Shown here in pieces: positions 48,706 to 64,000 of a stretch of 64,000 nt of DNA. The stretch covers positions 310,001 to 374,000 of the forward strand of contig NZ_FNCC01000003.1 in the NCBI RefSeq assembly GCF_900100955.1, written 5' to 3'. The notes below the pieces were generated by a model that was not told the DNA's origin, made no database searches, and worked only from the letters and a program-made list of their open reading frames with translations. The stretch's first letter is position 1, and each line of letters starts with the position of its first letter. Source of the DNA: Lentzea fradiae. GTDB taxonomy: Bacteria > Actinomycetota > Actinomycetes > Mycobacteriales > Pseudonocardiaceae. The position numbers were made by a program, and so were the translations under genes.

Positions 48706-48750
48706 ACGTTCACCCGGATGCCGGGCGCCGTTGGTGGTTTGCTCGCTGTC

Positions 48751-51081
48751 ATGGACATCGACAAGGCGATCGCGAGTCTGGACCTGCCCTCGAAGGTGCG
48801 GCTGCTCACCGGGTCCGCGCTGTTCGCGCTGCACGACGAGCCGCGCATCGGGCTGGCGTCGCTGAGGATGTCCGACGGCCCGACCGGTGTCCGCGGCGCC
48901 GAGCTGCGGGGCGGGGTGACCGCCTGCCTGCTGCCGAACGCGACGCTGCTCGCCCAGCACTGGGACCCGGCGCTGGCCCGCGAGGCCGCCGAGGTGCTGG
49001 CGGACGAGGCCGCGGCGCAACGGGTGCACGTCGTGCTCGGGCCGACGATCAACCTGCACCGCACGGCGCTCGGCGGCCGCCTGTTCGAGGCGTACAGCGA
49101 GGACCCGCTGCTCACCGGCGTGCTCGCCGCCGCATACGTGCGGGGCTTGCAGGACAAGGGCATCGCGGCGACGCCGAAGCACTACGTGGCCAACGAGTCC
49201 GAGACCGAACGGCGCACCGCGAGCATGGTGGTGGACGAGAAGACGTTGCGCGAGCTGTACCTGCTGCCGTTCGAGATCGTCGTCGAGGACTCCTCGCCGT
49301 GGGCGGTCATGGCGGCCTACAACAACGTCAACGGCGTCCCCGCCACCGAGCACACCGAACTCGTCGAGGGCGTGCTGAAGGGCGAGTGGGGCTTCGACGG
49401 CCTCGTCATGTCCGACTGGCTCGCCACGAAGTCGGCGGCGGCCAGCGCGAACGGCGGTCTCGACCTGGTCATGCCCGGTCCCGGCGGCCCGTGGGAGGAG
49501 GGGCTCGTCGCCGCGGTCGAGGCGGGCGAGGTCGCCGAGTCCGTCATCGACGGGCACCTGGCGCGGCTGCTGCTCCTGGCGGCGCGGACCGGGGCGTTCG
49601 GCGGCGAGCGGACGTGGCCCACCGGCCTGCCCGCACCGGACAGCGACCTCCGGCGCGAGCAGTTGCGCCGGTTCGCCGCGGGCGGCATGGTCGTGCTGCG
49701 CAACTCCGGTGTGCTGCCGCTCGACGAGTCCGCGCGGGTCGCGCTGATCGGACGGCACGCCGTCGACACGGTCGCACAGGGTGGCGGTTCGGCCGGGGTG
49801 CGCCCGCCGCACGTCATCAGCGTCGCCGAGGGACTGACGTCGCTGCTGGGCGACCGGGTGTCCGTCGTGGACGGCGTGGAGGTGCGGGACCGGTACGCCG
49901 CCCCCTCGGCCGGGGTGCTGCGGAACATCCGCGCCACGACCTACGACGCGTCCGGCGAGGTGCTGGCGTCACGGGAGATGGAGGTCGCCGAACTGTCGGC
50001 GTTCGGCGGCTGGGCGCAGGGCGCCGCGGCGATCGAGGTGTCCGGGGAGGTCGTCCTGGCGGAACCGGCGCGCATGCTCGTCGGCGTGCGCGGGTTCGGC
50101 GCCTGGACCGTGCAGGTCGCCGGTCAGACGCACACCACCCGGCTCGCCTGGGCGGGCGGCGTCGTCGAGGAGGCGCTGCTGAAGCCGCCGCACTGGACCA
50201 CCGAGGTGCTGCTCGCGCCCGGCGACCGGATCACGGCCACGGTCCGCGAGGCCGCCGCGCTGGTCGGCCTGATCGCCCGGCCCGTCCCCCGCCCGGCCGC
50301 CGACGCGATCGGCACCGCCGTGCGGGCGGCACGCGAGGCCGACGTGGCGGTGGTGGTCGTCGGGCTGACCGAGGAACAGGAGACCGAGGGCTTCGACAAG
50401 ACGACGCTCGCGCTGCCCGGCGAGCAGGACGCGCTGGTCACGGCGGTGGCAGCGGCCGCGCGGCGCACGGTCGTCGTGGTGAACGCGGCGACGCCGGTGC
50501 TGATGCCGTGGCTGGAGGAGGTCGACGCCGTGCTGTGGGCGGGTCTCCCCGGTCAGGAGGCCGGTGACGCCGTGGCCGCCGCGCTGCTCGGGCACGTCGA
50601 ACCGGCCGGGCGGCTCGTCACCACGTTCCCGCGCACCGACTCCGGCGCGGCGCCCGTGGTGCCGGTGGACGGTGAGCTGGTCTACGCCGAGGGCACCGCG
50701 CTCGGCCACCGGGGCGCGTCCGGTCCGCTGTTCTGGTTCGGCCACGGCCTCGGCTACACGACCTGGGAGTACGGCGCCGCCACCGCGTCCACTGTGGACG
50801 GGGTCGTCGACGTGGTGTCGGTGCCGGTCACCAACACCGGGCAGCGGCCGGGACGGGAGGTCGTGCAGGTCTACCTGCGACCGTCCGGCGAGCCGGTCCG
50901 GCTGATCGGCTGGTCCGCCGTGGACGTCCCGGCGGGCGAGACCGCCCTGGTCGAGGTGCGGTGCTCGGCCAGGACCCAGCGGGTCTGGTCGGGCGGCTGG
51001 CAGCCGCTGCGGGGCGGTGACGTGCTGGTCGCGCGCGGGCTCGGCGACGTCCGCGCGACGGCACGGGTGCCCCACCCGTGA
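48751..51081 (+). CDS. Glycoside hydrolase family 3 (beta-glucosidase-like)
   Basis: The 776-residue protein has the GH3 TIM barrel (RMSDGPTGVRG; VLGPTINLHRTALGGRLFEAYSEDP; KHYVANESETERR; GLVMSDWLATKSA with the nucleophile Asp near residue 221). It also has the alpha/beta sandwich (VVLRNSGVLPLD, VGLTEEQETEGFDKTTLALPGEQ with the candidate acid/base Glu), a probable PA14-like insert in the middle, and a C-terminal fibronectin III domain (FWFGHGLGYTTWEY, REVVQVYLR). There is no signal peptide, so it acts inside the cell on imported oligosaccharides or glycosides. ATG at 48751, 45 bases after the regulator stop. No link to the thiopeptide cluster is evident. Confidence 0.9.
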   Translation: MDIDKAIASLDLPSKVRLLTGSALFALHDEPRIGLASLRMSDGPTGVRGAELRGGVTACLLPNATLLAQHWDPALAREAAEVLADEAAAQRVHVVLGPTINLHRTALGGRLFEAYSEDPLLTGVLAAAYVRGLQDKGIAATPKHYVANESETERRTASMVVDEKTLRELYLLPFEIVVEDSSPWAVMAAYNNVNGVPATEHTELVEGVLKGEWGFDGLVMSDWLATKSAAASANGGLDLVMPGPGGPWEEGLVAAVEAGEVAESVIDGHLARLLLLAARTGAFGGERTWPTGLPAPDSDLRREQLRRFAAGGMVVLRNSGVLPLDESARVALIGRHAVDTVAQGGGSAGVRPPHVISVAEGLTSLLGDRVSVVDGVEVRDRYAAPSAGVLRNIRATTYDASGEVLASREMEVAELSAFGGWAQGAAAIEVSGEVVLAEPARMLVGVRGFGAWTVQVAGQTHTTRLAWAGGVVEEALLKPPHWTTEVLLAPGDRITATVREAAALVGLIARPVPRPAADAIGTAVRAAREADVAVVVVGLTEEQETEGFDKTTLALPGEQDALVTAVAAAARRTVVVVNAATPVLMPWLEEVDAVLWAGLPGQEAGDAVAAALLGHVEPAGRLVTTFPRTDSGAAPVVPVDGELVYAEGTALGHRGASGPLFWFGHGLGYTTWEYGAATASTVDGVVDVVSVPVTNTGQRPGREVVQVYLRPSGEPVRLIGWSAVDVPAGETALVEVRCSARTQRVWSGGWQPLRGGDVLVARGLGDVRATARVPHP
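50788..50799. repeat. Palindrome TCCACTGTGGAC (copy 2)
   Basis: Exact 12-mer inside the family 3 glycoside hydrolase gene, again in frame as Ser-Thr-Val-Asp. Confidence 0.6.
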
Positions 51082-51432
51082 GCCGGGGGAACCGCACCGG
51101 GTGCCGGTGACGTCGGAGTCGCACGACCGGCCACGAGGTGGTGGCCCGGTTTCAGTCTGGGGACCCGGCCGGGCCACCGGTCTCGAGGAAGAGGTGGCCG
51201 GCGTGCGTGGTGACGTGCACACGCCGGCCTGGCTCTGGGGGGAGAGGAACCGGTGGCTGTGCCGACCCCCAATCCCAGGTGAACTCGGGTCTGGCGGCAC
51301 AGGTACCGGCTCCGTGACCCACGGTGCCACCGGCGCCGCACAGATTTCGCCCAGGCGGCGCACAGACCGCACGTTCGTGCGCGAGGATGGCCGTACCGAC
51401 AGTTCTTGATCGTCGAGGAGAGAGAAACGCCT
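51082..51432 (+). promoter_or_regulatory. Upstream region of the thiopeptide regulator
   Basis: This 351-base gap precedes the SARP gene. I see no gene in it. It contains a direct repeat GCACAGA (51336-51375 area, copies about 24 bases apart) and a small GCACG-TT-CGTGC palindrome at 51369-51380, shortly before the GTG start at 51433. These could be SARP or other regulator sites; none is convincing by itself. Confidence 0.3.
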
Positions 51433-54117
51433 GTGGAGTTCCTGCTGCTCGGCCCGCTGGGGGTACGGCGGGAAGGCGCACCGCTGGAGCTGGGAGGGCC
51501 GCGGCAGCGCGCGGTGCTGACGATGCTGCTGCTGCACGCGAACCAGGCGGTGAGCGTGGCTCAGCTGACCGACGCGGTGTGGGACGTCCCGCCGGTCTCC
51601 CCCGAGTCGAACCTCCGCACGTACGTCGCCGGGCTGCGCCGGTCGCTGGGCGACCGGCTGCTCACCAGGCCCGGCCACGGCTACCTGCTCGTCGTCGAGC
51701 CCGGTGAGCTGGACCTCGACGCGTTCGACGAGCTGGTGCGCGCCGGGGAGACCGCGCTGGCCGGCAACGACGTGGAGGCGGCGGCCGAGGCGTTCGCCGG
51801 GGCGCTGGCCCGCTGGCGCGGCATCCCGACCGCGGAGCTGGACGCCGGTCCCCTGCTGCGCGCCGAGCTGACCCGGCTGCAGGAACGCAGGCTCACGGCC
51901 GTCGAGCGGTACGCGAAGGTGGCGCTGGAGCTCGGCCGGTTCGACGACGTGATCGACCGGCTGCGCCGGGAGACCGCGCTGCACCCGTTGCGCGAGGAGC
52001 TGTGGGCGCAGCTGATGCTGGCGCTCGACCGGTCCGGCCGCCGCGGCGAGGCCCTGGAGGCGTACACGGCGGTGCGCAAGCACGTCGTGGAGCAGGTCGG
52101 GGTGGAACCCGGCACGCGGCTGCGCCAGCTGCACCAGGTGATCCTGGCCAGCAGGGCGCCCTCGGCCGCGGCGCTGAACGCCTACCGGCAGCTGCCGATG
52201 GACATCGCCGAGTTCACCGGGCGTGAGGCCGAGCTGCGCGCTCTCTGCGAACCGGGACCGCGGAGCACCGTCGTGATCTCCGCGATCGAGGGCATGGCCG
52301 GGGTGGGCAAGACCAAGCTCGCCGTGCGGGCCGCGCACCGGCTCGCCGAGCGGTACCCGGACGTGCAGCTGTGGGCCGACCTGCACGGCTTCGACCCCGA
52401 CGAGCTGCCGTCCGACCCGGCGGCGGTGCTGGAGAGCTTCCTGCGCCTGCTCGGCGTGCCGGGCGGGCAGATCCCCGAGTCGCTGGAGGAACGCGCCGCC
52501 CTCTACCGCGACCGGCTCGCGGGCAGACGCGCGCTGGTGCTGCTCGACAACGCCGCGGGCGAGGACCAGGTGCGGCCGCTGCTGCCGGGCAGCCCCACCT
52601 GCACGGTGCTGATCACCAGCCGCCGCACCCTGCTGCACCTGGACGGCGTGAAGTCGGTCCAGCTCGACGTCTTCACGACCGGCGAGGCCGTCGCGCTGCT
52701 CGCCAGGATCGCGGGCGCCGACCGGGTCGACGCCGACCGCGAGGCCGCGGCACGGGTCGCCGAGCTGTGCGGGCACCTGCCGATCGCCGTGGCGCTGGCC
52801 GCGAAACGGCTCGCCCGGCGTCCTCAGTGGACGGTGCTGGACCTCGTGTCCCAGTTGGAAAGAGGGGGCGGTCTCGGTGCACGGGGCGTGTTCGACCTCT
52901 CGTACCAGGCCCTGCCAGAGCACCAGAGGCGCCTGTTTCGCCTCCTCGGACTCCACCCGGGAGAGGACGTCACCGCCGAGTCCGCCGCCGCCCTCGCCGG
53001 CCTGACCGCGTACGAGGCGGGCGACCTGCTGGAGACGCTGCTCGACGAACACCTGCTCCAGCAGCACACCCCCGGCCGGTACGGACTGCACGACCTGCTG
53101 CGCGCCTACGCCGTCGAACAGGTCACGGCCACCGAGCCACCACCGGCGCGGGCACTCGCGCGCCGCCGCGTGCTGGACTGGTACGTGCGGACGTCGTGGG
53201 AGGCCGTGCGGCGGCTCAACCCGCAGCGCAAGCTCGACATCGGCACCTGCGACCCGGCCGTGCACCCGAGGACGTTCGCCGACCGCGACGCCGCCCTGCT
53301 GTGGTGCGACACCGAACGCGCGAACCTGGTGGCCGCCGTCCGCGACGCCGCCGAGCACGACCTGCCGGAACGGGCCTGGACGCTCGCCCAGTGCCTGTGG
53401 GACTTCTTCAACCTCCGCAAGCACTGGACCGACTGGCTCGACACCCACGAGGTCGGGCTTCGAGCCGCCCGCGCGGCCGGTGACCGCGCCGCCGAGGGCC
53501 GGATGCTGATCACCCTGGGCATCGCGCTGCGCGAGGTGCGCCGCCACGACGAGGCCGTCGACAGCTACCAGCGGGCGCTGGCGATCTTCCGCGCCATCGG
53601 CGACCGCGAACGCGAAGAGCCGACGTGGAACAACCTCGGCATCGTCCACCTCGTGCAGCAGCGCCCCGACGACGCGCTGGAGTGCTTCGAACGGGCCGCC
53701 TCGATCGCCCGCGAGCTGGGCAACCTGCACTCGGAAGCGGTGACGCTGAACAACATCGCCCTGCTGCACGCCGAAGCCGGCCGTTACGACGCCGCGCTGG
53801 AGCGGTACCTGCGGGCGCTGGAGATCCGGCAGGAGATCAAGGACCCGTACAGCGAGGCGATCCTGCTCAACAACATCGGCGAGGTCCACCGGGGTCTGCT
53901 CGACTTCCCCAGCGCCGTGGCGCACATCGAGCGCGCCCTGGAGACGTTCCGCGAGATCGGCGACGTGTACGGGCAGGCGGAGTCGCTCGACAACCTGGGG
54001 CTGGCGCTGCACGGGCTCGGCGACCGCCGCGGCGCCGAGAAGTGCTGGATCGAGTCGGCCGCGCTGTTCGAGGAGCTGGGCGAACCCAAGGCCGCCGAGG
54101 TCAGAGACCGCCTGTAG
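51433..54117 (+). CDS. AfsR/SARP-type regulator (BTAD, NB-ARC, TPR)
   Basis: The 894-residue protein begins VEFLLLGPLGVRREGAPLELGGPRQRAVLTMLLLHANQAVS, the OmpR-like winged helix of SARPs, followed by the bacterial transcriptional activation domain to about residue 250. An NB-ARC ATPase follows (Walker A GMAGVGKTKL near 287, ALVLLDNA, LPIAVALAAKRLA). A tetratricopeptide repeat array runs from about 640 to 890. The GTG at 51433 sits 8 bases after GAGGAGAGAG; an in-frame TTG upstream is less likely. It lies 102 bases before the thiopeptide precursor on the same strand. It is therefore the likely pathway-specific activator, switching on with a signal sensed through the ATPase and repeats. Confidence 0.9.
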   Translation: MEFLLLGPLGVRREGAPLELGGPRQRAVLTMLLLHANQAVSVAQLTDAVWDVPPVSPESNLRTYVAGLRRSLGDRLLTRPGHGYLLVVEPGELDLDAFDELVRAGETALAGNDVEAAAEAFAGALARWRGIPTAELDAGPLLRAELTRLQERRLTAVERYAKVALELGRFDDVIDRLRRETALHPLREELWAQLMLALDRSGRRGEALEAYTAVRKHVVEQVGVEPGTRLRQLHQVILASRAPSAAALNAYRQLPMDIAEFTGREAELRALCEPGPRSTVVISAIEGMAGVGKTKLAVRAAHRLAERYPDVQLWADLHGFDPDELPSDPAAVLESFLRLLGVPGGQIPESLEERAALYRDRLAGRRALVLLDNAAGEDQVRPLLPGSPTCTVLITSRRTLLHLDGVKSVQLDVFTTGEAVALLARIAGADRVDADREAAARVAELCGHLPIAVALAAKRLARRPQWTVLDLVSQLERGGGLGARGVFDLSYQALPEHQRRLFRLLGLHPGEDVTAESAAALAGLTAYEAGDLLETLLDEHLLQQHTPGRYGLHDLLRAYAVEQVTATEPPPARALARRRVLDWYVRTSWEAVRRLNPQRKLDIGTCDPAVHPRTFADRDAALLWCDTERANLVAAVRDAAEHDLPERAWTLAQCLWDFFNLRKHWTDWLDTHEVGLRAARAAGDRAAEGRMLITLGIALREVRRHDEAVDSYQRALAIFRAIGDREREEPTWNNLGIVHLVQQRPDDALECFERAASIARELGNLHSEAVTLNNIALLHAEAGRYDAALERYLRALEIRQEIKDPYSEAILLNNIGEVHRGLLDFPSAVAHIERALETFREIGDVYGQAESLDNLGLALHGLGDRRGAEKCWIESAALFEELGEPKAAEVRDRL

Positions 54118-54130
54118 GCGATCAAGCAAG

Positions 54131-54153
54131 GCGCGATCCGTGCCGTATCGCGC
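54131..54153. promoter_or_regulatory. Hairpin or operator between regulator and precursor gene
   Basis: GCGCGAT (54131-54137), 9-base spacer, ATCGCGC (54147-54153) form a perfect 7-bp stem in the 102-base gap between the SARP gene and the precursor. It could terminate or attenuate transcription from the SARP gene, or be an operator for precursor expression. There is no T-run. Confidence 0.4.
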
Positions 54154-54219
54154 GTTGCGACCGTGTCGGAACGGCCCACCCCCGGCCGGTTCGGCACAAC
54201 TTGATGCGAAGGACACCGC

Positions 54220-54393
54220 ATGAAGGACCTTTCGTTCGACCTCGACGACCTGGAGCTCGGCGAGCTCGCGGTCACCTCGATGCGCGACTCCGTCGCCTTG
54301 CCCGAGTCCGGTGCGTCCGGCGCCCCCTCGTCCTGTTCCTGCGGCAGCTCGTCCTGCAGCAGCTGCACCCAGCCCCAGCTCCCCCCGGCATGA
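54220..54393 (+). CDS. lazA: Lactazole-type thiopeptide precursor peptide (57 aa)
   Basis: ATG at 54220 follows GAAGGACACC. The peptide has an acidic leader, MKDLSFDLDDLELGELAVTS in its first 20 residues, then a conserved stretch ending SVALPESGA at residue 32. The C-terminal core is rich in Ser and Cys: SSCSCGSSSCSSC at 37-49, then TQPQLPPA. As I remember it, the LazA leader shares the LDL.ELTVTSLRD.VALPE.GA pattern, and its core ends SSSCAQPQDM; the SSC-x-QPQ register is conserved here. By that alignment Ser48 is the pyridine-forming residue, Ser47 an oxazole, and Cys39, 41, 46 and 49 thiazoles. The stop overlaps the next gene (ATGA). The first ring residue may be Ser33, Ser37 or Ser38. This gene is too short for most gene finders. 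Confidence 0.93.
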   Translation: MKDLSFDLDDLELGELAVTSMRDSVALPESGASGAPSSCSCGSSSCSSCTQPQLPPA

Positions 54394-56783
54394 CCGGTCG
54401 CGTGCAGGGAGAAGTCGCGCCGTACGCCCTCGTGCGTCTGGCGGCCCTGCCGCACCCGGACGGCGCCGCCGGTGCGGCGCCGTTCCGGCGGGTGGTGGAG
54501 GCGCTGGCGGCCGTCGAGAGCGAGCTGCTGGCACTGGCCGGTCCGCTGAGCGAGGAGCTGCACGACAGCGCGGGCGGCTTCGACCGCAGGGTGCTCCTGC
54601 CGTTGCGCCGCGACGTCCACAACGGACGGACGCCGCGTCCCGCCCTGCGTGCCGCCGCCACCGGCCTGGTCGCGCGGGTGCCGCGGCTCGGCCGCTGGTT
54701 CGAGCTGCTGGACGAACGGGCCACGCTGACGGCCGAGGCCGGCCGCTGCCTGCCGGAGGCGCTGGCCGCCGAACGCGAGGTGCTCGCCGGGCTGTGCGCC
54801 GAGGAGCCGGTGCGGCGTGCCGCCGCGCTGAGCGGACGTGACCTGTGGCAGGGGATCTCCCGCGCCGGGGCCACCGGCCGCCGTGCCCGCAAGGGCGAGC
54901 CGTCCGTGCTGCGGTACGCGCTGCGCGCGACGTCGAAGACGAGCCCCCTGTCCTGGTACGCCTCCGTCGGCTGGGCGACCTGGTCCCCCGACGCCCCGGA
55001 ACCGGTGTGGGGGACACCGGTCGCCGTGACCCGCGTCAGCCAGGTGCTGCTGACCCGGCTCGTCGCCGCCCTCGTCGCCGACCGCGCCCTGCTCTTCGAC
55101 CACCCGCACCGCCTCGCACCGGACGTGCACGAGGAGTCGGCGCGGACGCTGTTCCGCCGCGACGTCCCCGCCTCCGGGCCACTGCGCGCGTCCGTCGGCG
55201 TCGAGGAGACGGTCGAGCTGGCGTCGAGCCCGCCGCTGCGGTTCCTCGTCGGCCTCACCGCCGCGAACCCCAAGGGCATCAGCCCGTCCGAGCTGGCCAG
55301 CGCCCTCGCGACCCGGCTGCCCGACGGCGAGGCCGACCGCGCACAGGGCTACGTCGCGCTGCTGCTCGACATCAAGCTGCTGGTCCCGGTGCTGCCGGTG
55401 GACCCGCAGGACCCGCACGCCTGCCTCGCGCTGGCCTCGTGGCTGCGCGACACCGGACGGAACGCGATCGCCGACCGGGTCCTCGCCCTGCACCGCGCCA
55501 CGGCCGAGTTCGCCGATCTCGACGCCGCCACACGACCGGCAGCGCTGGCGGAGCTGTTCGCCGCGTGGGAGTCGCTGGGTGAGCTGGCCGGCGCCGACCT
55601 GACCGGCGTGACACCCGTGAGCGAGGACGTCGTGCTGCCCGAGCCCGTCCGCCTCGGCCGGTCGCACGGCTACGACGGCGTCCGGTCGCTGGCCGGGCTG
55701 ACGCCGTTGCTCATGCTGTTCGACCGGCACCTCGCGATCCGGCGGGACGCGCGCGACAGGTTCGTCAAGGAGTTCGGCCGCGGCGGCACCGCCCGGCTCG
55801 CCGCCTGCGCTCCCCTGCTGCACGACGCGATGTCCGGCGCTCCGACCGGCGGCCTCGGCGCCAGCCGCGCGCAGGTGGCGGACCTGGTGCGGGACGGCGT
55901 GATCACCGACGAGGCCGTCACCGCCGCCGCCGACCTGCTGCCGTCGTGGATGAAGACCCGGCCCGTCTCGTACTCGTTCTTCGCCCAGCCCTTCCCCGGC
56001 GGGCTGGTCGTGAACCACGTCTACGACGGGTTCGGGCGCTTCCCCGGCCGGTTCCTCGACCTGCTGCCACCCGAGGCGTACGCGACGGTCCGGGCCACTT
56101 TGGACGGTGTGTTCCCACGCGGGTTCGCCGAGTACCGGCCGGTGCAGGGCTTCAACCCGAACCTGCACCCGCTGCTCGGCCGCGCGGAGATCGGCGACGA
56201 CCCGCGCTGGGCCGACCACACGCCGGACGCGTTCGAGGTGGTGCACGACCTGGAAGCCGACGAGCTGCGGTTGCGGCGCAAGGACACCGGCGCCGTCGTG
56301 GACGTCCTCTACCTCGGCTACCTCATGCCGATCTCGCTGCCCGACCGGTCCGCCGCCCTGCACGCGGACCTGACGTGCGGCGCCGCCGACCTCCGGCCGT
56401 TGCAACCGGTCGAGGAGTCCGGCGGCGTGCGCGTCGCCGGACAGCTGCGCTACCGCGACGTGCTGCTGGCCCGCCGCTCGTGGGACTTCGACGCGCTGAC
56501 GTTGTCCGGCGTCGCCGAGGTGACGGCGTTCCGCGCCCGGCACGGCCTGCCCGCCCAGCTGTTCGCGGGAACCGGCGGCGAGATCACCTCCCGCGAGGAC
56601 TTCGAGGCCAGGATCAACGGCCCGAAACCGCAGTACGTCGACCTGACCAACGCCCTGCACCTGCACTGCCTGCCGCGCCTGCTGTCCCGCTACCCCGGCC
56701 GGGTGCGGCTCACCGAGGCGCTGCCGGTGCCGTCGGGGCAGGTGCTGGAGGTGGTCGCGGAGACCTACCGGAGGCCCGGATGA
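54390..56783 (+). CDS. lazB: Thiopeptide dehydratase, glutamylation subunit (LanB N-terminal domain, LazB-like)
   Basis: The 797-residue protein starts MTGRVQGEVAPYALVRLAALP and covers the Lant_dehydr_N domain that transfers glutamate from Glu-tRNA to Ser/Thr of the precursor. Recognisable blocks are RYALRATSKTSPLSWYASVGWA, KTRPVSYSFFAQPFPGGLVVNHVYDGFGRF, and the C-terminal KPQYVDLTNALHLHCLPRLL. The elimination domain present in full-length LanB of lanthipeptides is absent; as in other thiopeptide clusters it is encoded separately, here in the last gene (60760-62259). The start codon overlaps the precursor stop by four bases and the stop overlaps the next gene, so all are coupled. An upstream extension of this frame is not real coding sequence. 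Confidence 0.92.
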   Translation: MTGRVQGEVAPYALVRLAALPHPDGAAGAAPFRRVVEALAAVESELLALAGPLSEELHDSAGGFDRRVLLPLRRDVHNGRTPRPALRAAATGLVARVPRLGRWFELLDERATLTAEAGRCLPEALAAEREVLAGLCAEEPVRRAAALSGRDLWQGISRAGATGRRARKGEPSVLRYALRATSKTSPLSWYASVGWATWSPDAPEPVWGTPVAVTRVSQVLLTRLVAALVADRALLFDHPHRLAPDVHEESARTLFRRDVPASGPLRASVGVEETVELASSPPLRFLVGLTAANPKGISPSELASALATRLPDGEADRAQGYVALLLDIKLLVPVLPVDPQDPHACLALASWLRDTGRNAIADRVLALHRATAEFADLDAATRPAALAELFAAWESLGELAGADLTGVTPVSEDVVLPEPVRLGRSHGYDGVRSLAGLTPLLMLFDRHLAIRRDARDRFVKEFGRGGTARLAACAPLLHDAMSGAPTGGLGASRAQVADLVRDGVITDEAVTAAADLLPSWMKTRPVSYSFFAQPFPGGLVVNHVYDGFGRFPGRFLDLLPPEAYATVRATLDGVFPRGFAEYRPVQGFNPNLHPLLGRAEIGDDPRWADHTPDAFEVVHDLEADELRLRRKDTGAVVDVLYLGYLMPISLPDRSAALHADLTCGAADLRPLQPVEESGGVRVAGQLRYRDVLLARRSWDFDALTLSGVAEVTAFRARHGLPAQLFAGTGGEITSREDFEARINGPKPQYVDLTNALHLHCLPRLLSRYPGRVRLTEALPVPSGQVLEVVAETYRRPG

Positions 56784-57856
56784 CCGACGTCGTCTGCCAC
56801 TACCACGACCCGGTCAAGGCACCGCTGCTGCGCGACGGCGTCCTGCCCGCCCTGGCCACCGTCACGTCGGCGTTCCCCGGCGTCGCGGGCCACGTCGAAC
56901 GCCACTGGCTGCACGGCCCGCACGTGCGGGTGCGGCTGTCCGGCCAGTCGGCCGAGCCCGCTGCCCTGCTGCTCGCCACCCTGCTCAGGTCCTACGTGAC
57001 GGCACATCCGTCCACAGTGGAGCTGTCCGAGGACGAGCAGCTCTCCCACGCCCGTGCCGCCGCCGTGGCCGAGCTGCTGCTGCCGCCGTTCACACCGTTG
57101 TACCCCAACAACTCCGTGCGGATCGAACCGACGTCGGTCGACCGGCTGCGCGAACTGCTCCCGGACGCGGAGATCAGGTTGCGGTTCGAGGGACTGCGCC
57201 TGGGAGTGCCCGTGCTGCGCGAGTCGTTGGCCGCGCCCCGTGCGACCGTGGCCCTGACCGCGATGGCCGTGCACGCCAGCCGTTACCCCGGCGGCCTGCA
57301 GTACGGCTACCACTCGTTCCTCTCCCACGTCGAGGACTTCCTGCTGGCCAGCGACCCGACCGGCGCCGTGCGCGGCAAGCTCGACGCGGTGTGGGACAAG
57401 CACTCCGAGACCGCCTGCGCGCTGGTCGCCGGGGTCGCGCTCGGCCACCCCACCTCCCGGCTGGAAGCCGCCTGGCAGACCTGGACGATCGCGGTGCGGC
57501 TGGCCGCGGAGGCCGAGTACGACGCGGGCCGGCTCGACGAGGTCAACCCGCGCCACGCCGAACGCGCCCACCGGATCGGCGATCCCGACGCCGTCCGCCG
57601 CTACGACTACGGCGAGCGCTCCGAGTTCAGCGACTACCACACCGCGTTGTGGAACGCCGACCTCACCGACCCCGCGATCCGGCGGAACATGACCGTCTAC
57701 CGCCTGGGCACCAACGTGCTCTACCAGCTGCTCGCCATCAGCGACGTGACGCCGATGGAGCGCTATGCCGCCGCACACCTGGTGAGCCGCGCCGCTCAGC
57801 AGGTGTGCGGCACCACCTGGCAGGACCAGTTCGCCGCGCTGCCGAAGGCCGGGTGA
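56780..57856 (+). CDS. lazC: Thiopeptide pyridine synthase ([4+2] cyclase, LazC-like)
   Basis: The 358-residue protein begins VVCHYHDPVKAPLLRDGVLPALATV and contains HWLHGPHVRVRLSG, the pattern of the SpaB C-terminal fold. It then has GGLQYGYHSFLSHVEDFLLASD, ALWNADLTDPAIRRNMTVYRLGTNVLYQLLAISDVTPMERY and a conserved helical end. Proteins of this kind (TclM, LazC) join two dehydroalanines by formal aza-[4+2] cycloaddition, close the macrocycle and expel the leader peptide. The second gene after the precursor is its usual place. ATGA overlap upstream and GTGA overlap downstream. This protein would set the ring size of the new core. Confidence 0.9.
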   Translation: MTDVVCHYHDPVKAPLLRDGVLPALATVTSAFPGVAGHVERHWLHGPHVRVRLSGQSAEPAALLLATLLRSYVTAHPSTVELSEDEQLSHARAAAVAELLLPPFTPLYPNNSVRIEPTSVDRLRELLPDAEIRLRFEGLRLGVPVLRESLAAPRATVALTAMAVHASRYPGGLQYGYHSFLSHVEDFLLASDPTGAVRGKLDAVWDKHSETACALVAGVALGHPTSRLEAAWQTWTIAVRLAAEAEYDAGRLDEVNPRHAERAHRIGDPDAVRRYDYGERSEFSDYHTALWNADLTDPAIRRNMTVYRLGTNVLYQLLAISDVTPMERYAAAHLVSRAAQQVCGTTWQDQFAALPKAG

Positions 57857-59274
57857 GGCCCGTGCTGGTGCGGTTGCGCCCGGTCGTGCGGGCCACCAGG
57901 ACCGCGGACGGCCTGCACCTGCGCGGCTGGGCGTCGAGCTGCACGATCACCGGCGGCAGCGGGCTGTGGGAGCTGTGGCGGCGCCTCGAACCACGGCTGT
58001 CCGAAGGCGTTGCGCCGGAGTCGCTGGGAGTGCCCGAGGGCACGGCACCGGCCGTCCGGGCGGCGGTCGAGACGATCCTGGACCAGTTGCGGGACCACGA
58101 CATGCTGGTGTCGATGCCGGAGCCGTGGGGTGCCGGCGGACCGGCTCCGGACGTCGCCGCGTGGCTGGAGTCCGTGGCTGCCGACCCGGTGGACGCGTGG
58201 CGACGGCTGCGGGCCGGAGTGGTCACCATGACGGGGAACGGGCTGCTCGCCGACGCCGCCGTGCGCTCCGCGGAAGCTGTCGGTCTGCGGGTTCACCGTG
58301 CTGCCGGTCCGAGCGACGAACTCTTGCTGTCCACCGGAACCCTTGTGGTCCAAGCGGGTTCTGGAGCGGAGGCCGGTTATGTGCTACCCGCCCGCGAAGG
58401 GTTCACTTCATTCAACACTGAAGTCATCAACCGAATTGCCGCGCGGCTCGGGCTGACCGGCGACCCCGGCGAGGTGCTCGCCGCTCTCGTCGGGGCGGCG
58501 GCGGTGCACCGGCTCACGTGCGCGGTGACCGGCCTGGCGGACGCGCCCGAGCAGGACCACGGCTTCCCGGTGGTGCTGGTCGCCCGCACCGGGCCGCTGC
58601 GTTCGGCCTACCACCCGCTGCTCACCGGACCGCCCCGGCCGTTCAGCCTGGACGCCCTCACCGACCGGGAGCTGGGCCCGGTCGAGACGCCGGAGCTCGG
58701 CCCGCTCCCCCAGGTCCCGGTCAACCTGGCGCTGTCGGGCGACGCCCTCGGCATCGGCACCACCGCCGACGAGGCCAGGCTCCGCGCGGCGCTCAACGCC
58801 ATCAAGTGCGACGGCGTGCTGGGTGTCGACGACCTCCACGCCCGCGGCGCCGCCCTGCGGCTGGCCGCGCGGTATGTCCCCGGTGAGCCCGCCGAGCCCG
58901 GCGAGTGGACCACCGGCCGCACCGCCCGCAGGTGGTGGAAGGCGCTGACGCTGCGGTTCGGACGGCCTGCGGTGGTCGACGTCCGCAAGCTCGCCGAGGA
59001 CGCCTACCGGGCGGAAGTCCGTCAGGGACAACGGGTGCTGGCCTGGGCCGTGGAGGTCACGGCCGCCGACGCGGTGGCGTTCGCCGCCCTGGCAGCCGCC
59101 GCCCACGCCCAGGCGGGCCGTGACGGCACGGCGCACGTCCAGGGCTTCGGGCCCGACGAGGACAAGCTCCAGCGCGCCCTCGAACTCCTGCCGGGGGTGC
59201 GGGTCAGTCCGCTCTCCCTCGATCCGGAACTGACCGCCGCCGGACTCGTCGCGTACACAGTGGACGAACGATGA
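57853..59274 (+). CDS. lazD: RRE-containing E1-like cyclodehydratase partner (LazD-like)
   Basis: The 473-residue protein (RPVLVRLRPVVRATRTADGLHLRGWASSCTITGGSGLWELWRRLEPRLSEGV at the N-terminus) has an opening winged-helix region like a RiPP recognition element. A degenerate E1/ThiF-like domain follows (GNGLLADAAVRSAEAVGLRVHRAAG). Such proteins bind the leader and activate the YcaO enzyme in azole formation. It is followed with a four-base overlap by the YcaO gene, the expected partner. Family recognition is by position and overall pattern more than by strong motifs. Codons around 58330-58440 are AT-richer than the rest. Confidence 0.82.
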   Translation: MRPVLVRLRPVVRATRTADGLHLRGWASSCTITGGSGLWELWRRLEPRLSEGVAPESLGVPEGTAPAVRAAVETILDQLRDHDMLVSMPEPWGAGGPAPDVAAWLESVAADPVDAWRRLRAGVVTMTGNGLLADAAVRSAEAVGLRVHRAAGPSDELLLSTGTLVVQAGSGAEAGYVLPAREGFTSFNTEVINRIAARLGLTGDPGEVLAALVGAAAVHRLTCAVTGLADAPEQDHGFPVVLVARTGPLRSAYHPLLTGPPRPFSLDALTDRELGPVETPELGPLPQVPVNLALSGDALGIGTTADEARLRAALNAIKCDGVLGVDDLHARGAALRLAARYVPGEPAEPGEWTTGRTARRWWKALTLRFGRPAVVDVRKLAEDAYRAEVRQGQRVLAWAVEVTAADAVAFAALAAAAHAQAGRDGTAHVQGFGPDEDKLQRALELLPGVRVSPLSLDPELTAAGLVAYTVDER

Positions 59275-60743
59275 CGACGACAGACGGAGGGTTGGTCGTC
59301 ATCGGGCCGACTGGCGAGAAGTGCGCACGGCAGGCGGAGCAGGCGCGGCTGGCCGTGAGCGGAGCACCGCCCCAGGCCGTCGTCGGCGGGCTCGTCGCCC
59401 CTGCCTTCCGCCCGTTGGTCGAGTTGCTGCAACCTGCGGAACACACCGTCGTCGCCATCCGGACCGACCTGGCGATGGTGTCCACGCACCGGCTCCACTG
59501 CTGCGCGGAGGACGTGCCGCCACCGGACACGTCGATCGAGCCGAACCAGCTCCGCTCCCGCAACGACCTGACCACAGTGGACAAGCTCAGGACGTTGGTG
59601 GACTTCCGCTACGGCCCCATCCCGGCCCTCTACCGCACCGGACACCTGCCGCTCGCCACCGTCACCGCCGAACTGGACCACCACACGGCGGGCTACGGCC
59701 GCACGAGCACGTTCGAGGAGGCCGAACGCGTGGCGATCTTCGAGGCGGTGGAACGCCTCAACGGCCTGCGTCCCAGGAACCCGAGCACAACCGTGGCGTC
59801 CTTCGCCGAGTTGGGTGACCAGGCGGTGGACCCGAGCCGCCTGGCCCTGGCCGACTTCGACCAGCGCTACACACCGGACCTCCGGATGCGGTGGACGCGG
59901 GCGTGGTCCTACACCGGCGACCGGCCCGTCCTGGTGCCGGAGCAGGTGGCCTACTACGGCGCCCACACCCCGCCGGAACACCGGTTCGTCCACGAGACGT
60001 CCAACGGCTGCGGTCTCGGCAACAGCCTCACCGAAGCGGTGCTGCACGGCCTGTTCGAGGTGGCCGAACGCGACGCGTTCCTGATGGCCTGGTACGCCGC
60101 GACCCCGTTGCCCCGGCTCTCGATCCCGGACGACCCGCTGCTGCACCACCTCGCGGACCGGCTCGAAGAACGCGGCTACGAACTGCTCTTCCTCAACGCC
60201 ACCAACGATCTCGGCATCCCCGCGGTGCTCACCCTGGCGAGGGGCGCGGGAACGTTCTTCGCCGCCGGGGCCAGTCCGGACCCGCTTCGGGCGATGCGGT
60301 CGGCGGCGGTCGAGGTGGCCGTGGACGTCGAGTCGTTCCCCGACCGCGTCCGCGCGAACCCGGACCTCTACGCCGAGCAGCGGCTGCGGCAGCTGTTCGA
60401 AGACCCCTTCCAGGTCCGGTCGATGGACGACCACGTCGCGGTCAACACGCTGCCGGAAGCCGCCGCCCGCCACGACTTCCTGGTCGGCGACGAGACGACC
60501 GAACTGGTGGACGAGCGGGACCACACGAGCCTCGAAGAGCTGCTCGGCCACTACGCCGATCGGCTGGAGGTGATCGCGGTCGACCAGACCGACCCGGTGA
60601 CGGCGAGCCGCCTGGGCCTGCACTCGGCGAAGGTGATCGTGCCGGGAACGCTGCCGATGACGTTCGGCCACCGGCACCGCCGCACGCGCGGTGTCACGCG
60701 ACTGCCCGAGCTGCGCAACCCGCACCCCCACCCGTTCCCCTGA
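59271..60743 (+). CDS. lazE: YcaO azoline-forming cyclodehydratase (LazE-like)
   Basis: The 490-residue protein has the YcaO ATP-binding elements: TFEEAERVAIFEAVERLNG near residue 150, TSNGCGLGNSLTEAVLHGLFEVAERDAFLMAWYAATPLPRL near 245-285, and AVEVAVDVESF. It ends NPHPHPFP, the proline-rich C-terminus that completes the active site of azoline-forming YcaOs. It cyclises Cys and selected Ser of the core to thiazolines and oxazolines with ATP, guided by the LazD-like protein. ATG overlaps the previous stop. About 110 residues precede the YcaO core. Confidence 0.93.
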   Translation: MTTTDGGLVVIGPTGEKCARQAEQARLAVSGAPPQAVVGGLVAPAFRPLVELLQPAEHTVVAIRTDLAMVSTHRLHCCAEDVPPPDTSIEPNQLRSRNDLTTVDKLRTLVDFRYGPIPALYRTGHLPLATVTAELDHHTAGYGRTSTFEEAERVAIFEAVERLNGLRPRNPSTTVASFAELGDQAVDPSRLALADFDQRYTPDLRMRWTRAWSYTGDRPVLVPEQVAYYGAHTPPEHRFVHETSNGCGLGNSLTEAVLHGLFEVAERDAFLMAWYAATPLPRLSIPDDPLLHHLADRLEERGYELLFLNATNDLGIPAVLTLARGAGTFFAAGASPDPLRAMRSAAVEVAVDVESFPDRVRANPDLYAEQRLRQLFEDPFQVRSMDDHVAVNTLPEAAARHDFLVGDETTELVDERDHTSLEELLGHYADRLEVIAVDQTDPVTASRLGLHSAKVIVPGTLPMTFGHRHRRTRGVTRLPELRNPHPHPFP

Positions 60744-60759
60744 TCCCGTTGGAGCAGCT

Positions 60760-62259
60760 GTGACCTGGACCGGCCTGCACTGCAGGGTGAACTGGAAGCG
60801 CGCCGACGTCGACACGTTCGTCGCCGACTCCCTCGCGCCCCTGATGGCGGGCCGCGAGTGGTTCTTCCTGCGGTACTGGGAGACCGGGCCGCACCTGCGC
60901 GTCCGGGTCCAGGGCGATCCCGGTGACCTGCGGTCCGAGCTGGCGGACCTCGTCGCCGCCCAGGACTTCGCCACCACCGCCGACGAACCGGGCTGGCTGC
61001 CGCACGGCGACGTCCGCGAGGTCGAGTACGTGCCGGAGACGGCCCGGTACGGCGGCCCGGCCGCGCTTCCCGTGGCCGAGCGCCTCTTCTGCCGCAGCAC
61101 CGAGGTGGCCGTCGCGGTCCTCCAGGCGGCCCGCACGGAGAGCGGCCGCCTCACCGCCGCCCTCCAGCTCACGATGACGACCGCCAAGGCGCTCGGCCTC
61201 GACCTGCCGCAGGCCGCGTCGTGGCTGCGCACCCTGGGCACGGGCTGGCGCACCGTCACCGAGTGGGCCCCCGCCCCCACGATCGGCAGCCACCTGGCCG
61301 CGCACCAGCTGCTCGCCCAGCGCGGCCAGGACCTGGCCGACCGGTGGCACCGCGACCCGACCGGCGTCCTCGCGCACTGGGCCGGCGAGGTCCGCGCGGC
61401 ACGGGAGGAGCTGGGCACCTGGCTCCCGCACGTCTGGGCCTCCCAGCTGCACATGCTCCTCAACCGCCTGGGCATCGGCCCGAACGAGGAACGCCTGGTC
61501 TGCTGGACCACCGCGGCCGCGGCGCTGTCCCCCACCGGCCTCACCGACTTCCACGCCGACGGCGCCACCGCCCCCGACCGCCGGTACCTGGAGGCCAGCA
61601 AGTTCCTGCCCGGCTTCGGCGACCAGCTCCCCCGCACACCGGCGCCCGCACCGCAGTTCGCCCCCTGGCTACCGACCGTCCCGCTTCAGTCCACTGTGGA
61701 CGAGATGCTCGCGTCGGCATTCCGCGCCCGCAGGACGAGCCGCGAACTTCAGGGCACCCTGACCGCCGACCAGCTGGGCACGATGCTGTGGACGGCGATG
61801 GCCCCCAGCGACGGCAGGAGGCCGTACCCGAGCGCGGGCGCCCGGTACTGCGCCCGGCTCAGGCTGATCGCGCTCGACGTCGACGGCCTGGCGCCCGGCC
61901 GGTACGAGGTCGACGAGACGAACCGGACGTTGATCCGCCTCGGTGACGCGCCGTCGGTCGACGACCTGGAAGCCACCTCCATGTGGTTCGGCAAGGACAG
62001 GACCGAACTGACCGGGACACCCGCCGTGCTGGCCCTCTACGTCCGAATAGGACTGCTGCGCGAGTCCTACGGGCTGCGCGCGCTCAGGTTCGCGTTCACC
62101 GAAGCCGGGCATCTGGCCCAAAACCTCACCGTCACCGCCGCACACGGAAACATCCGCACCGGATTGGTCGGCGGCTTCTACGACGACCTCGCCCACGACG
62201 TCATCGGCCTCGACGGCGTGGACGACACACTCGTCTACTTCCTACCCCTGGCCTCGTAA
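60760..62259 (+). CDS. lazF: Fusion of glutamate-elimination domain and azoline dehydrogenase (LazF-like)
   Basis: The 499-residue protein has two parts. Residues 1 to about 285 are a SpaB_C/lantibiotic elimination domain (WTGLHCRVNWKRADVDTFVADSLAPLM, FFLRYWETGPHLRVRVQGD, SQLHMLLNRLGIGPNEERL) that removes the glutamyl group to form dehydroalanine. Residues 315-499 are an FMN nitroreductase-like dehydrogenase (RARRTSRELQG, RRPYPSAGARYCARL, ESYGLRALRFAFTEAGHLAQNL) that oxidises azolines to azoles. This fusion is the mark of the lactazole family; most other thiopeptide clusters encode the two separately. The GTG at 60760 follows GGAG, 16 bases after the YcaO stop. It is the last gene of the cluster. 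Confidence 0.92.
   Translation: MTWTGLHCRVNWKRADVDTFVADSLAPLMAGREWFFLRYWETGPHLRVRVQGDPGDLRSELADLVAAQDFATTADEPGWLPHGDVREVEYVPETARYGGPAALPVAERLFCRSTEVAVAVLQAARTESGRLTAALQLTMTTAKALGLDLPQAASWLRTLGTGWRTVTEWAPAPTIGSHLAAHQLLAQRGQDLADRWHRDPTGVLAHWAGEVRAAREELGTWLPHVWASQLHMLLNRLGIGPNEERLVCWTTAAAALSPTGLTDFHADGATAPDRRYLEASKFLPGFGDQLPRTPAPAPQFAPWLPTVPLQSTVDEMLASAFRARRTSRELQGTLTADQLGTMLWTAMAPSDGRRPYPSAGARYCARLRLIALDVDGLAPGRYEVDETNRTLIRLGDAPSVDDLEATSMWFGKDRTELTGTPAVLALYVRIGLLRESYGLRALRFAFTEAGHLAQNLTVTAAHGNIRTGLVGGFYDDLAHDVIGLDGVDDTLVYFLPLAS
61690..61701. repeat. Palindrome TCCACTGTGGAC (copy 3)
   Basis: Exact 12-mer inside the LazF-like gene, again in frame as Ser-Thr-Val-Asp. Confidence 0.6.
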
Positions 62260-62453
62260 ACACGAACGACACCGCCATATCCGACGACGAACGCACACGG
62301 TTACCGTCCCAAGGGACCGACGGAGATCCCTCAGCCACCATTTTCCCTTCTGATCTCGCTCCACAAGCACTCTCCGCAACACCCCACCCCAGTCGCAACT
62401 CTCTTTCGCGTTTTCCCCTGCCGCACGCGGGGCCCTTTCGTCCTGTCACGGCC

Positions 62454-62472
62454 TACGCGGGGTCCCCGCGTA
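62454..62472. repeat. Perfect 19-bp palindrome
   Basis: TACGCGGGG-T-CCCCGCGTA has nine-base arms around a single T. Its core ACGCGGGG also occurs alone about 30 bases upstream. As RNA it would form a tight stem and could be a terminator for the thiopeptide operon; as DNA it has the look of a dimer-binding site. Confidence 0.6.
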
Positions 62473-62601
62473 CTAAAGCCACGTCACGCGGAGGAGGCGG
62501 GAACCACTGGGTGGGTGACACACGGGCAGGTGTGCGGCGGGTGACGGGACAGAATCTCTGACGCAGCGCCTAGTAAGCGCGTGCGTTCTCGGAGAATCCC
62601 G

Positions 62602-62621
62602 GCCGCGATCTTCATCGCGGC
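62602..62621. terminator. Hairpin between convergent operons
   Basis: GCCGCGAT (62602-62609), loop CTTC, ATCGCGGC (62614-62621): a perfect 8-bp stem with a stable tetraloop, 50 bases beyond the end of the minus-strand WXG-like gene. Likely a terminator for it. Confidence 0.6.
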
Positions 62622-62670
62622 GGCGCAGCGCATCGACCGGACGTAGGCGGGTTGTCCGCCGTTGCGCGGC

Positions 62671-63504
62671 TCAGACCACGGCCGCCTCCTCGGGGTCCTC
62701 CTCCTGCTCCGAGACGGTCGGCAGCTCGGCCGTGGTGCTCGGGGCTGAACCGCCCTGGGCCAGCTCCCCGATCACCGACATCGACTGCTTCACGATCGTC
62801 AGCACGGCCGCGGCACCCTCGACGAGCTTGATCAGGTTCTCGCCGCTCGCGAGCAGCTCGCCGAGCTTGGCGGCGATCCGCAGGCCGCAGTCGACGGCGA
62901 TCTGCACGCACTGCGGGATGGCCGCGGCGATGCTCTGCCCGAACGTCACCGCCGCCGCCGCGACGGCCTGCGTCATGATCGGCACGATCTTGCCGACGGC
63001 CTCGGTGACCAGCCGCGTCACCTCGGCGGCGACCTGGGCGACCACCTCGCCCGCCTTGATCAGCGCCGTCGCGTTGGTGAGCGCGGTCTCGGCGATCGAC
63101 AGCACGCCGTCGACGAGCTGCTGACCGGTCTGGAGGTAGTCGGTGGCGCTCTGCCCCGACCAGCCGCTGGTCTCGCTGCTCGCCTTCTCCCGGTAGCTCT
63201 CCGCGAGGGCGGCGGCGGACGTGCTCGCGTTCCGCAGGTCACCCGCGCCCTGCTCCACGCCGCCGGGGTCGCCTTGCAGCTGCCGCAACGGCTCTTCCAG
63301 GAACGAGACCATCGGCGTGAGGAACCCGACGCCCGCGCTGTCCAGCGCCTGCAACGGTTTCCCGTCCTCGCCGAGCGCGGAGACCGGGGCCTTGGGCGTG
63401 GCCGCGAGGTCCTGCGACAGCCACTCGTCGCCCGCGATGGCGCTGGTGGTGGTGCGCAGCTCTTCGAGCAGTGCGGCGATCGTGCCCGCGTCCGTCGTCG
63501 TCAC
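62671..63504 (-). CDS. WXG100-like / type VII secretion-associated protein
   Basis: The 277-residue protein has a long helical N-terminal half (TIAALLEELRTTTSAIAGDEWLSQDL; GGVEQGAGDLRNASTSAAALAESYREKASSETSGWSGQSATDYLQ) with a W-x-G turn in SGWSGQS, the mark of WXG100/ESX proteins. A hydrophobic Ala/Val-rich segment (170-240) and an acidic, disordered tail follow. It is likely a substrate or effector-like partner of a type VII secretion system. The long hydrophobic region could insert in membranes. GTGA overlap with the EspC-like gene upstream. No toxin domain or enzyme motif is recognised. Confidence 0.7.
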   Translation of the reverse strand: MTTTDAGTIAALLEELRTTTSAIAGDEWLSQDLAATPKAPVSALGEDGKPLQALDSAGVGFLTPMVSFLEEPLRQLQGDPGGVEQGAGDLRNASTSAAALAESYREKASSETSGWSGQSATDYLQTGQQLVDGVLSIAETALTNATALIKAGEVVAQVAAEVTRLVTEAVGKIVPIMTQAVAAAAVTFGQSIAAAIPQCVQIAVDCGLRIAAKLGELLASGENLIKLVEGAAAVLTIVKQSMSVIGELAQGGSAPSTTAELPTVSEQEEDPEEAAVV

Positions 63505-63809
63505 CGGTCCACCCCCGTGAAGCTCGCGGCGTTGCCGTCGTCGGTGCGCTGGTAGGCGTCGGCGGTCTGCCGCACGCCGATGCTCACCTTGTCCAAAGTG
63601 GACGCGACATCGCCGAACGCCGTCCGGGTCCGGCCCATCGCGCCACCGAGTCCGGCGGCGAGGAACTGCGCGAACGACCCCAGCTCCTGGCCGAGCCGGT
63701 CGGGCATCCGCGCCGCGGTCGCGGACAGCTGGTCCGCGTACCCGGCGAGCGTCGCGGCGTGCCCGCGCAGCTGCTCGTGGTCGACCGTGAAGTTGTCAGG
63801 GGTGCTCAC
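63501..63809 (-). CDS. EspC-like type VII secretion target protein
   Basis: The 102-residue protein (FTVDHEQLRGHAATLAGYADQLSATAARMPDRLGQELGSFAQFL, then GDVASTLDKVSIGVRQTADAYQRTDDGNAASF) matches the ESX-1 EspC-type family. These are small helical hairpins that pair with larger ESX substrates; the YxxxD-type secretion signal may correspond to YQRTD. It overlaps the genes on both sides by four bases, so the three proteins are co-produced. Common in Pseudonocardiales genomes as YbaB-EspC-WXG cassettes. Confidence 0.75.
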   Translation of the reverse strand: MSTPDNFTVDHEQLRGHAATLAGYADQLSATAARMPDRLGQELGSFAQFLAAGLGGAMGRTRTAFGDVASTLDKVSIGVRQTADAYQRTDDGNAASFTGVDR

Positions 63810-64000
63810 CGGACGGCCTCCGGCAGGTGCCTCGTGACCTCGTCCAGGGCCTCGCCCTCACCCAGGTAGCCCGCCATCACCTCGGCCATCCGCGCCCCGG
63901 CGATCCGTTGCGCCTCGCGCGCCGTGCTGACGATGAGCATCGCCAGCGTGTCGACGTCGAGCCTGCGGGCCGCGGGCGTCAGCGCGACGTCACCGAGCAC
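63806..64000 (-). CDS. YbaB/EbfC-like protein, C-terminal part, cut by the window edge
   Basis: The visible 64 residues (VALTPAARRLDVDTLAMLIVSTAREAQRIAGARMAEVMAGYLG) match the C-terminus of YbaB/EbfC-type proteins, small nucleoid-associated proteins often found before EspC-like and WXG-like genes in actinomycetes. The N-terminus is beyond 64000. The stop overlaps the EspC-like GTG start. Identification is tentative because only the end is visible. Confidence 0.55.
   Translation of the reverse strand: MLGDVALTPAARRLDVDTLAMLIVSTAREAQRIAGARMAEVMAGYLGEGEALDEVTRHLPEAVR

Follow-up and report, generated by a model that had tools for sequence, protein, structure and literature searches.

We analysed a 64,000-nucleotide stretch of the Lentzea fradiae genome (8.5 Mb in 43 contigs), hereafter the window, which comprises positions 310001-374000 of contig 21 and which a preliminary description had reported to carry a new lactazole-type thiopeptide cluster. 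Six genes, a precursor gene followed by lazB to lazF, span 54220-62259 (Table 1). All six frames are open, the A-B, B-C, C-D and D-E junctions overlap by 4 bp each, and 16 bp separate E from F. The layout given in the preliminary description, with the enzyme genes directly behind the precursor and either overlapping or 16 bases apart, is what the sequence holds, and the same is true of the 57-codon gene, its leader end, the core features and the coordinates.

Table 1. Features of the lactazole-type locus, in positions of the window.
Feature	Position	Strand	Description and basis
lazA	54220..54393	+	Precursor, 57 codons: 32-residue leader (end VALPESGA) and 25-residue core SGAPSSCSCGSSSCSSCTQPQLPPA; PF19409, NF033400
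lazB	54390..56783	+	Putative tRNA-Glu-dependent glutamylation half of a split dehydratase; Lant_dehydr_N 1.5e-20
lazC	56780..57856	+	Putative [4+2] pyridine synthase; profile and predicted fold match PbtD/TbtD
lazD	57853..59274 (GTG start)	+	Putative leader-binding (RRE)/degenerate E1-like cyclodehydratase partner; homology to gene D
lazE	59271..60743	+	Putative YcaO cyclodehydratase, C-terminal PHPHPFP; PF02624 (YcaO) 1.8e-75
lazF	60760..62259 (GTG start)	+	Putative glutamate-elimination and azoline dehydrogenase activities fused in one frame; Lant_dehydr_C, Nitroreductase
AfsR/SARP-like regulator	51406..54117	+	BTAD, NB-ARC and TPR domains; upstream of lazA
Conserved stem-loop	54126..54158	+	Between the AfsR-like gene and lazA; pattern, alignment and pair counts

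The precursor LazA exceeds the cut-offs of PF19409 (7.8e-10) and NF033400 (2e-10) and falls below that of TIGR03892. A thiopeptide leader, Ser1 and an SSSC site in the core are all present in this short protein, whose core contains nine Ser and the four Cys previously counted, and which has nine close homologues within the genus, one of them from a remnant cluster. At a threshold of 0.001, Lant_dehydr_N was found in LazB only and Lant_dehydr_C in LazF only, indicating a split LanB dehydratase. A profile of 11 LazC homologues finds PbtD (4.5e-18) and TbtD (9e-16), and the predicted fold of LazC (predicted local distance difference test, pLDDT, 81.9) matches PbtD over most of its length with a Foldseek E of 1e-12; no Pfam family matched LazC at 0.001. 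In addition to PF02624, LazE exceeds the cut-off of TIGR03604 and matches TruD and LynD. The preliminary description had made its assignment depend on LazF containing both elimination and dehydrogenase domains, and both occur above cut-off in the one open reading frame (ORF): PF14028 (Lant_dehydr_C) at residues 12-251 (2.1e-37) and PF00881 (Nitroreductase) at residues 322-496 (3.8e-08). TIGR03891 is likewise above cut-off, TIGR03605 (SagB) reaches 54.8 bits, below its 78.4, and the sole PDB sequence match of LazF is the nitroreductase 3eo7, to the C-terminal part. The genome holds one LazA, one LazB and one full-length LazF. Together these family, sequence and fold comparisons support the earlier lactazole-type assignment and the roles given to A, B, C, E and F, while homology and a weak structural model support that of LazD weakly.

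Full-length LazF within an intact cluster occurs in 9 of 24 Lentzea genomes, ours included. Among 394 genomes sampled from the class, 12, again including ours, have LazF that is at least partial (E <= 1e-30), and loci from 10 of the other 11 were taken into the comparison (G424 was left out). Gene order is identical in the other eight intact Lentzea clusters, of which six belong to public named records, and because this order recurs the cluster is more than a chance assembly. Our proteins are 78-83% (LazB), 72-81% (LazC), 64-72% (LazE) and 71-80% (LazF) identical to theirs; LazD is 52-63% identical (one match in two pieces, 63 and 72%) and LazA 89-95% over the aligned part. Related laz-region matches were found in L. 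albidocapillata, its subspecies violacea, L. waywayandensis, L. pudingi, L. atacamensis, Lentzea sp. NEAU-D7 and NBRC 102530.

The nine intact Lentzea cores share an invariant 13-residue block, SSCSCGSSSCSSC, for which 7 of the 13 codons are identical across the nine clusters and the other 6 vary synonymously only; residues 2-4 and the tail are variable. All nine also retain Ser1 and the SSSC site. Cores were further compared in a panel from loci L032-L171, built from ORFs of 30-1500 residues (their last 110 residues) at E <= 1e-4. The panel takes at most 30 loci per search, covering part of the genomes with a match (39 of 392 genomes in one search and 30 of 297 in another), and gave 96 leader/core combinations, some of which are other peptides. 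The ring site was compared in 26 panel cores, 19 with SSSC at residue 11 and 7 Saccharothrix-type TSC cores; the L. atacamensis remnant core and a degenerate core at L127 (SSSR) were set aside. Each of the 19 cores picked by the motif has SSSC from residue 11 onward, and after Cys14 the motif-sharing cores diverge into SSC, CCC or A[HQT]P. Because the SSSC position is fixed while the sequence past Cys14 differs, Ser13 is the only serine that fits the role of second dehydroalanine (Dha) in every core.

Lactazole uses Ser12 as the pyridine partner and forms a 32-membered ring (PMC7210931). Our predicted partner, Ser13, lies one residue beyond, so that a ring from Ser1 to Ser13 is predicted to have 35 members and not lactazole's 32, a change in size that the preliminary description missed in proposing a 2-oxazolyl-6-thiazolyl-pyridine macrocycle. 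By analogy with lactazole, thiazoles are predicted at Cys7, Cys9, Cys14 and Cys17 and an oxazole at Ser12. The earlier count of four thiazoles and one oxazole may be too low, since Ser15-Ser16 stand where relatives have Cys-Cys; these two serines would probably become oxazoles, making the SSC tail extension a likely run of azoles. A variable, Pro-rich tail is predicted to follow.

Our mass arithmetic subtracts 20.026 per azole, 18.011 per Dha, and NH3 plus H2O for the pyridine step. Lactazole A then comes out at m/z 701.203, its Dha4 form at 692.198 and its Ser10 form at 710.208, and the values printed for lactazole A and two by-products are 701.20, 692.20 and 710.20 (PMC7210931). A 19-residue lactazole core was rejected, as its masses did not fit; the 16-residue core deduced from mutant positions in the same paper fits. 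For the product of our whole 25-residue core, the calculated monoisotopic masses are M 2080.65 ([M+2H]2+ 1041.33) with seven azoles and four dehydrations, M 2084.68 (1043.35) with five azoles and six dehydrations, and M 2120.70 (1061.36) with five azoles and four dehydrations.

From the observed gene set, gene order, domains, LazC fold and conservation, we consider it very likely that the window carries an intact lactazole-type thiopeptide cluster of Lentzea, probably functional, with a six-gene route to a Ser1/Ser13 pyridine in a 35-membered ring. Each chemical step, like the ring size, the tail azoles and the product, is modelled on lactazole and on its biochemistry as reconstituted (PMC7210931). 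LazD would bind the leader and, together with the YcaO protein LazE, cyclise the Cys and some of the Ser of the LazA core, and the C-terminal half of LazF would oxidise the resulting azolines. LazB would glutamylate remaining Ser using Glu-tRNA, and the N-terminal half of LazF would eliminate glutamate to leave dehydroalanines. LazC would fuse Dha1 with Dha13 to form the pyridine, a step that closes the macrocycle and releases the leader as an amide.

Several results weigh against this reading. LazB has no NCBIfam match and no PDB sequence match at 0.01, and LazC scores 136 bits with the NF045556 equivalog, whose cut-off of 325 is not reached. LazD matches no Pfam or NCBIfam family even at E 10. 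By sequence it finds ribosomal proteins alone in the PDB (E >= 0.05), and its model, which is of low confidence (pLDDT 58.8), shows a resemblance to MccB (E 0.06) and to the RRE of PbtF (prob 0.99, E 0.16), with none at or below 0.001; given no family match and a poor model, its putative role depends chiefly on its being homologous to gene D in other clusters of the lactazole type. With regard to the core, the 19 cores were chosen by their SSSC motif, so that their agreement on its position is partly selection, and the tail beyond Cys17 may be trimmed. Furthermore, the seven core residues needed by the Laz enzymes include Trp2 and Ala14 (PMC10683472), whereas our core has Gly2 and, past Cys14, Ser15.

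The same cluster could also act differently if LazC used Ser16, before Cys17, which would give a 44-membered ring and a short, lactazole-like tail, C-TQPQ. The segment C14-S15-S16-C17-TQPQ resembles the lactazole end S-C-AQP, and Laz enzymes accept larger rings in vitro, within a range of 14 to 62 members (PMC7210931). However, relatives sharing the ring motif either pass from Cys14 to A[HQT]P or carry CCCC without a Ser16, and we regard the larger ring as unlikely. A decaying or silent relic, as found in several relatives, would be in keeping with the 14 of 23 Lentzea genomes that have the upstream gene and no intact cluster, five of them with remnants. Yet the six genes here are open, the core codons show synonymous variation alone among the nine intact clusters, and it is the strain that lost most of lazC-F that has an altered core, CSCSSGSC; we consider a relic very unlikely. 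The enzymes might instead yield a linear azole/dehydroalanine peptide, as the score of LazC under its curated cut-off and the existence of related clusters without detectable LazC (L049, L104, L105) would allow. Against this, LazC is present here with a fold that matches PbtD and TbtD over most of its length, the nine intact Lentzea cores retain Ser1 and the SSSC site, and the LazC-less clusters have different cores, so that a linear product seems to us extremely improbable.

Within the genus, the AfsR-like gene that precedes lazA is present in 23 of the 24 genomes (E <= 1e-200) and is followed by an intact cluster in nine, a remnant in five and no trace in nine. The no-trace calls cover stretches of about 8 kb or more (only 1.8 kb, to a contig end, in G015) together with genome-wide LazA, LazB and LazF searches. 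In L. atacamensis (G021, L041:5762-8927) a natural deletion has left lazA and lazB together with roughly half of lazC and the end of lazF, with the core SSCSCSSGSCSSC; in G017 and G018 lazB is all that remains, G002 retains pieces of it and G003 its last 28 codons. Two groups have good support both in the AfsR-like protein tree (23 rows) and in the LazB tree (13 rows), one of G017 and G018 with G021 near and one of seven species. On these the trees agree, and our genome and G011 take no supported position. The simplest reading is that the cluster apparently descended vertically from an ancestor of the genus and was lost repeatedly. Lentzea offers a natural series behind one gene, with graded remnants and an unchanging 13-residue block in the intact cores, in which the comparison of close relatives could test product and function.

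The lazB genes of G017 (L067:3501-5768) and G018 (L068:3525-5711) are orphans, with no lazA or lazC-F behind them. Since their two lazB-flanking junctions are alike by eye, lazA and lazC-F were probably lost before these genomes split; independent recent losses at identical junctions are the alternative. Both frames are without stops, at 756 and 729 codons compared with 797-805 in intact clusters, and being shorter yet open both carry in-frame deletions. A frameshift in the G018 gene was considered and rejected, as it forms one open frame with an in-frame deletion. The ratio of nonsynonymous to synonymous substitution rates (dN/dS) between the two orphans is 0.27 at a dS of 0.43, the AfsR-like gene giving 0.09 and the intact pairs computed 0.10-0.33. 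In a neutral simulation with substitutions only, about five stops arose per lineage and 4 of 500 runs were stop-free. Together these results suggest that orphan lazB has been constrained after the loss of the other laz genes and, if that constraint is real, it may point to a further role of a peptide glutamylation enzyme.

Additionally, the stretch that separates lazA from the AfsR-like gene contains a conserved stem-loop, GCGCGATCCGTGCCGTATCGCGC, which is part of a longer stem. Of the 14 genomes with laz or its remnants, 13 have it there, 12 by pattern (<=2 mismatches) and G012, with a more divergent copy, by alignment; none of the nine AfsR-like sites without laz trace gave a match at <=2 mismatches. 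Elsewhere the pattern matched twice, in G016 and G015, and a backward control pattern once, in G007. Over 12 distinct rows, 89% of cells are paired, compared with 27-51% when the stem is slid, and three pairs show two-sided changes, compared with up to two pairs and four cells in slid versions; the slid comparison is biased toward the stem, which was drawn from the same sequences that were counted. Among 500 shuffles, the observed value was reached by 2 for paired cells, 4 for covariation and 17 for two-sided pairs, while 253 matched the number of further pair types, a measure that gives no support. Rfam returned nothing at gathering score over 50000-64000. A scan of 53900-62700 found no sigma-70 promoter and no T-run terminator, and by that scan the element is not a classical terminator. 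We conclude that the evidence for a real stem is moderate, and that the element is a candidate attenuator, terminator or operator.

The AfsR-like gene itself was absent from the preliminary description. It was considered as a dedicated regulator of the cluster and rejected, because 23 of 24 genomes have it, whether or not they carry laz; it is probably a genus-wide neighbour and not cluster-specific. Further upstream lie a family 3 glycosidase, a PucR-type regulator and an FAD enzyme, then an esterase and an ABC transporter gene; the nearest upstream ABC genes (43092-44813) adjoin a large ORF (40004-43117) that is nonribosomal peptide synthetase-like by eye only. Downstream are EspC/WXG100-like genes, one of them above the Pfam cut-off, and, outside the window about 8.6 kb downstream of lazF, a DrrA-like ABC pair (L172:9339-11277). 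The earlier view of a minimal gene set agrees with the family scan of ORFs from a simple gene caller over 48739-63809, which returned no P450, methyltransferase, exporter or known immunity gene; of the genes lying further downstream two were scanned, and the ORF at 40004-43117 lies outside the scan. Lactazole A is not known to have antibacterial activity. Among the 24 Lentzea genomes, none has a TsnR-type N-terminal domain (PF04705) and all have TipAS (PF07739), which therefore has no link with laz presence.

Related clusters occur in other genera. In a Streptomyces-like genus, loci L102, L117-L123 and L125, among the matches listed, have precursors whose residues 5-14, SSCSCGSSSC, are identical to ours, whereas their ends read A[HQT]P without our SSC. 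Eight of these nine loci, again among the matches listed, also carry a 32-type precursor, for example with the core SWGSCSCQGSSSCAQP; in L102 and L117-L123 the 32-type and 35-type precursors stand side by side, and L102, the one examined as a whole cluster, has one enzyme set. Across six lactazole-type loci in this genus, identity to our proteins is about 37-47% for LazB, C, E and F (LazC in 4 of the 6) and, over parts of the protein, 28-43% for LazD. In g27, another genus of the Lentzea family, the core pattern is SSCSCGSSSCCCC (L173 and L174, STVGSSCSCGSSSCCCCHPP and SNVGSSCSCGSSSCCCCQHP); compared with our cluster, its LazF is 53-57% identical, Cys-Cys replaces Ser15-Ser16, and the E-F gap is about 1-1.4 kb.

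Saccharothrix species also carry related clusters, with two in S. carnea. Five different LazA cores per locus were seen at L050 (Saccharothrix obliqua) and L161. In the three Saccharothrix loci examined (L047:8922-10001, L048:8925-10001 and L050:8898-10001), E and F are separated by an additional ORF, about 360 residues long, that gives at best a sub-threshold nitroreductase or SagB match. The clusters without detectable LazC at L049 (Saccharothrix luteola) and at L104 and L105 (Streptomyces-like) have B, D, E and F, with almost no room for LazC between B and D; with their cores of a different kind they possibly make linear azole peptides. A second, different thiopeptide-like cluster lies in Lentzea sp. 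NEAU-D7 (G012, L087, C4:194000-212000), with the core SCNCVCGLCCSCSPSA, two YcaO-like regions, and LanB-like and, by eye, radical-SAM-like ORFs.

Four core or leader strings were not found in a library of open-licence papers; a 2018 survey of thiopeptides, outside that scope, may well include Lentzea records. The novelty claimed in the preliminary description is overstated: an identical 13-residue block occurs in eight other intact Lentzea clusters, SSCSCGSSSC recurs in two other genera, and lactazole-like clusters already made up 251 of 508 annotated predicted thiopeptide clusters, close to half, in a 2020 account that gives laz as the only one characterised, its function then unknown (PMC7210931). 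Lactazole has also been named among low-similarity (4-25%) clusters of ribosomally synthesised and post-translationally modified peptides in six Lentzea strains including L. pudingi, the list as given carrying no strain assignment (PMC9120177).

We hold as possible but doubtful a broader proposal, that Lentzea, the 35-type clusters of the Streptomyces-like genus and g27 form an uncharacterised lactazole-type branch with 35-membered rings and, in the family of Lentzea, four contiguous tail azoles (thiazole-oxazole-oxazole-thiazole here, poly-thiazole in relatives). No dedicated immunity or export gene is recognised in Lentzea, and the product would perhaps not be an antibiotic. LazB, kept alone under selection in two relatives after the deletion of lazA and lazC-F, would then have acquired another substrate.

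Compared with known systems, our cluster is of the known lactazole kind, apparently passed down within one genus and often lost there, and its ring size and tail are predicted to differ. Its gene order is presumably that of laz. Berninamycin and radamycin are characterised compounds whose precursors differ from ours. Both have 35-membered rings, as predicted here (PMC7210931, PMC3917276), and such thiopeptides were known in 2014, when their target was given as unknown (PMC3917276); no lactazole-type natural product with a 35-membered ring was seen in literature listings. The lactazole A cluster of Streptomyces lactacystinaeus (laz; AB820694.1, BGC0000606), which has been called the simplest thiopeptide cluster (PMC7136475), likewise consists of one precursor and LazB-F with a fused LazF (PMC7210931). 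Our cluster resembles it in needing few or no further genes and in having Ser1 and the SSSC site. In contrast, our core has 25 residues where lactazole has 16, and Gly2 where lactazole has Trp2 and, compared with laz as described, it has a predicted 35-membered ring in place of a 32-membered one, an extra SSC and a Pro-rich tail. As predicted, the L. fradiae core would offer Laz-type enzymes a natural substrate with 35 ring members.

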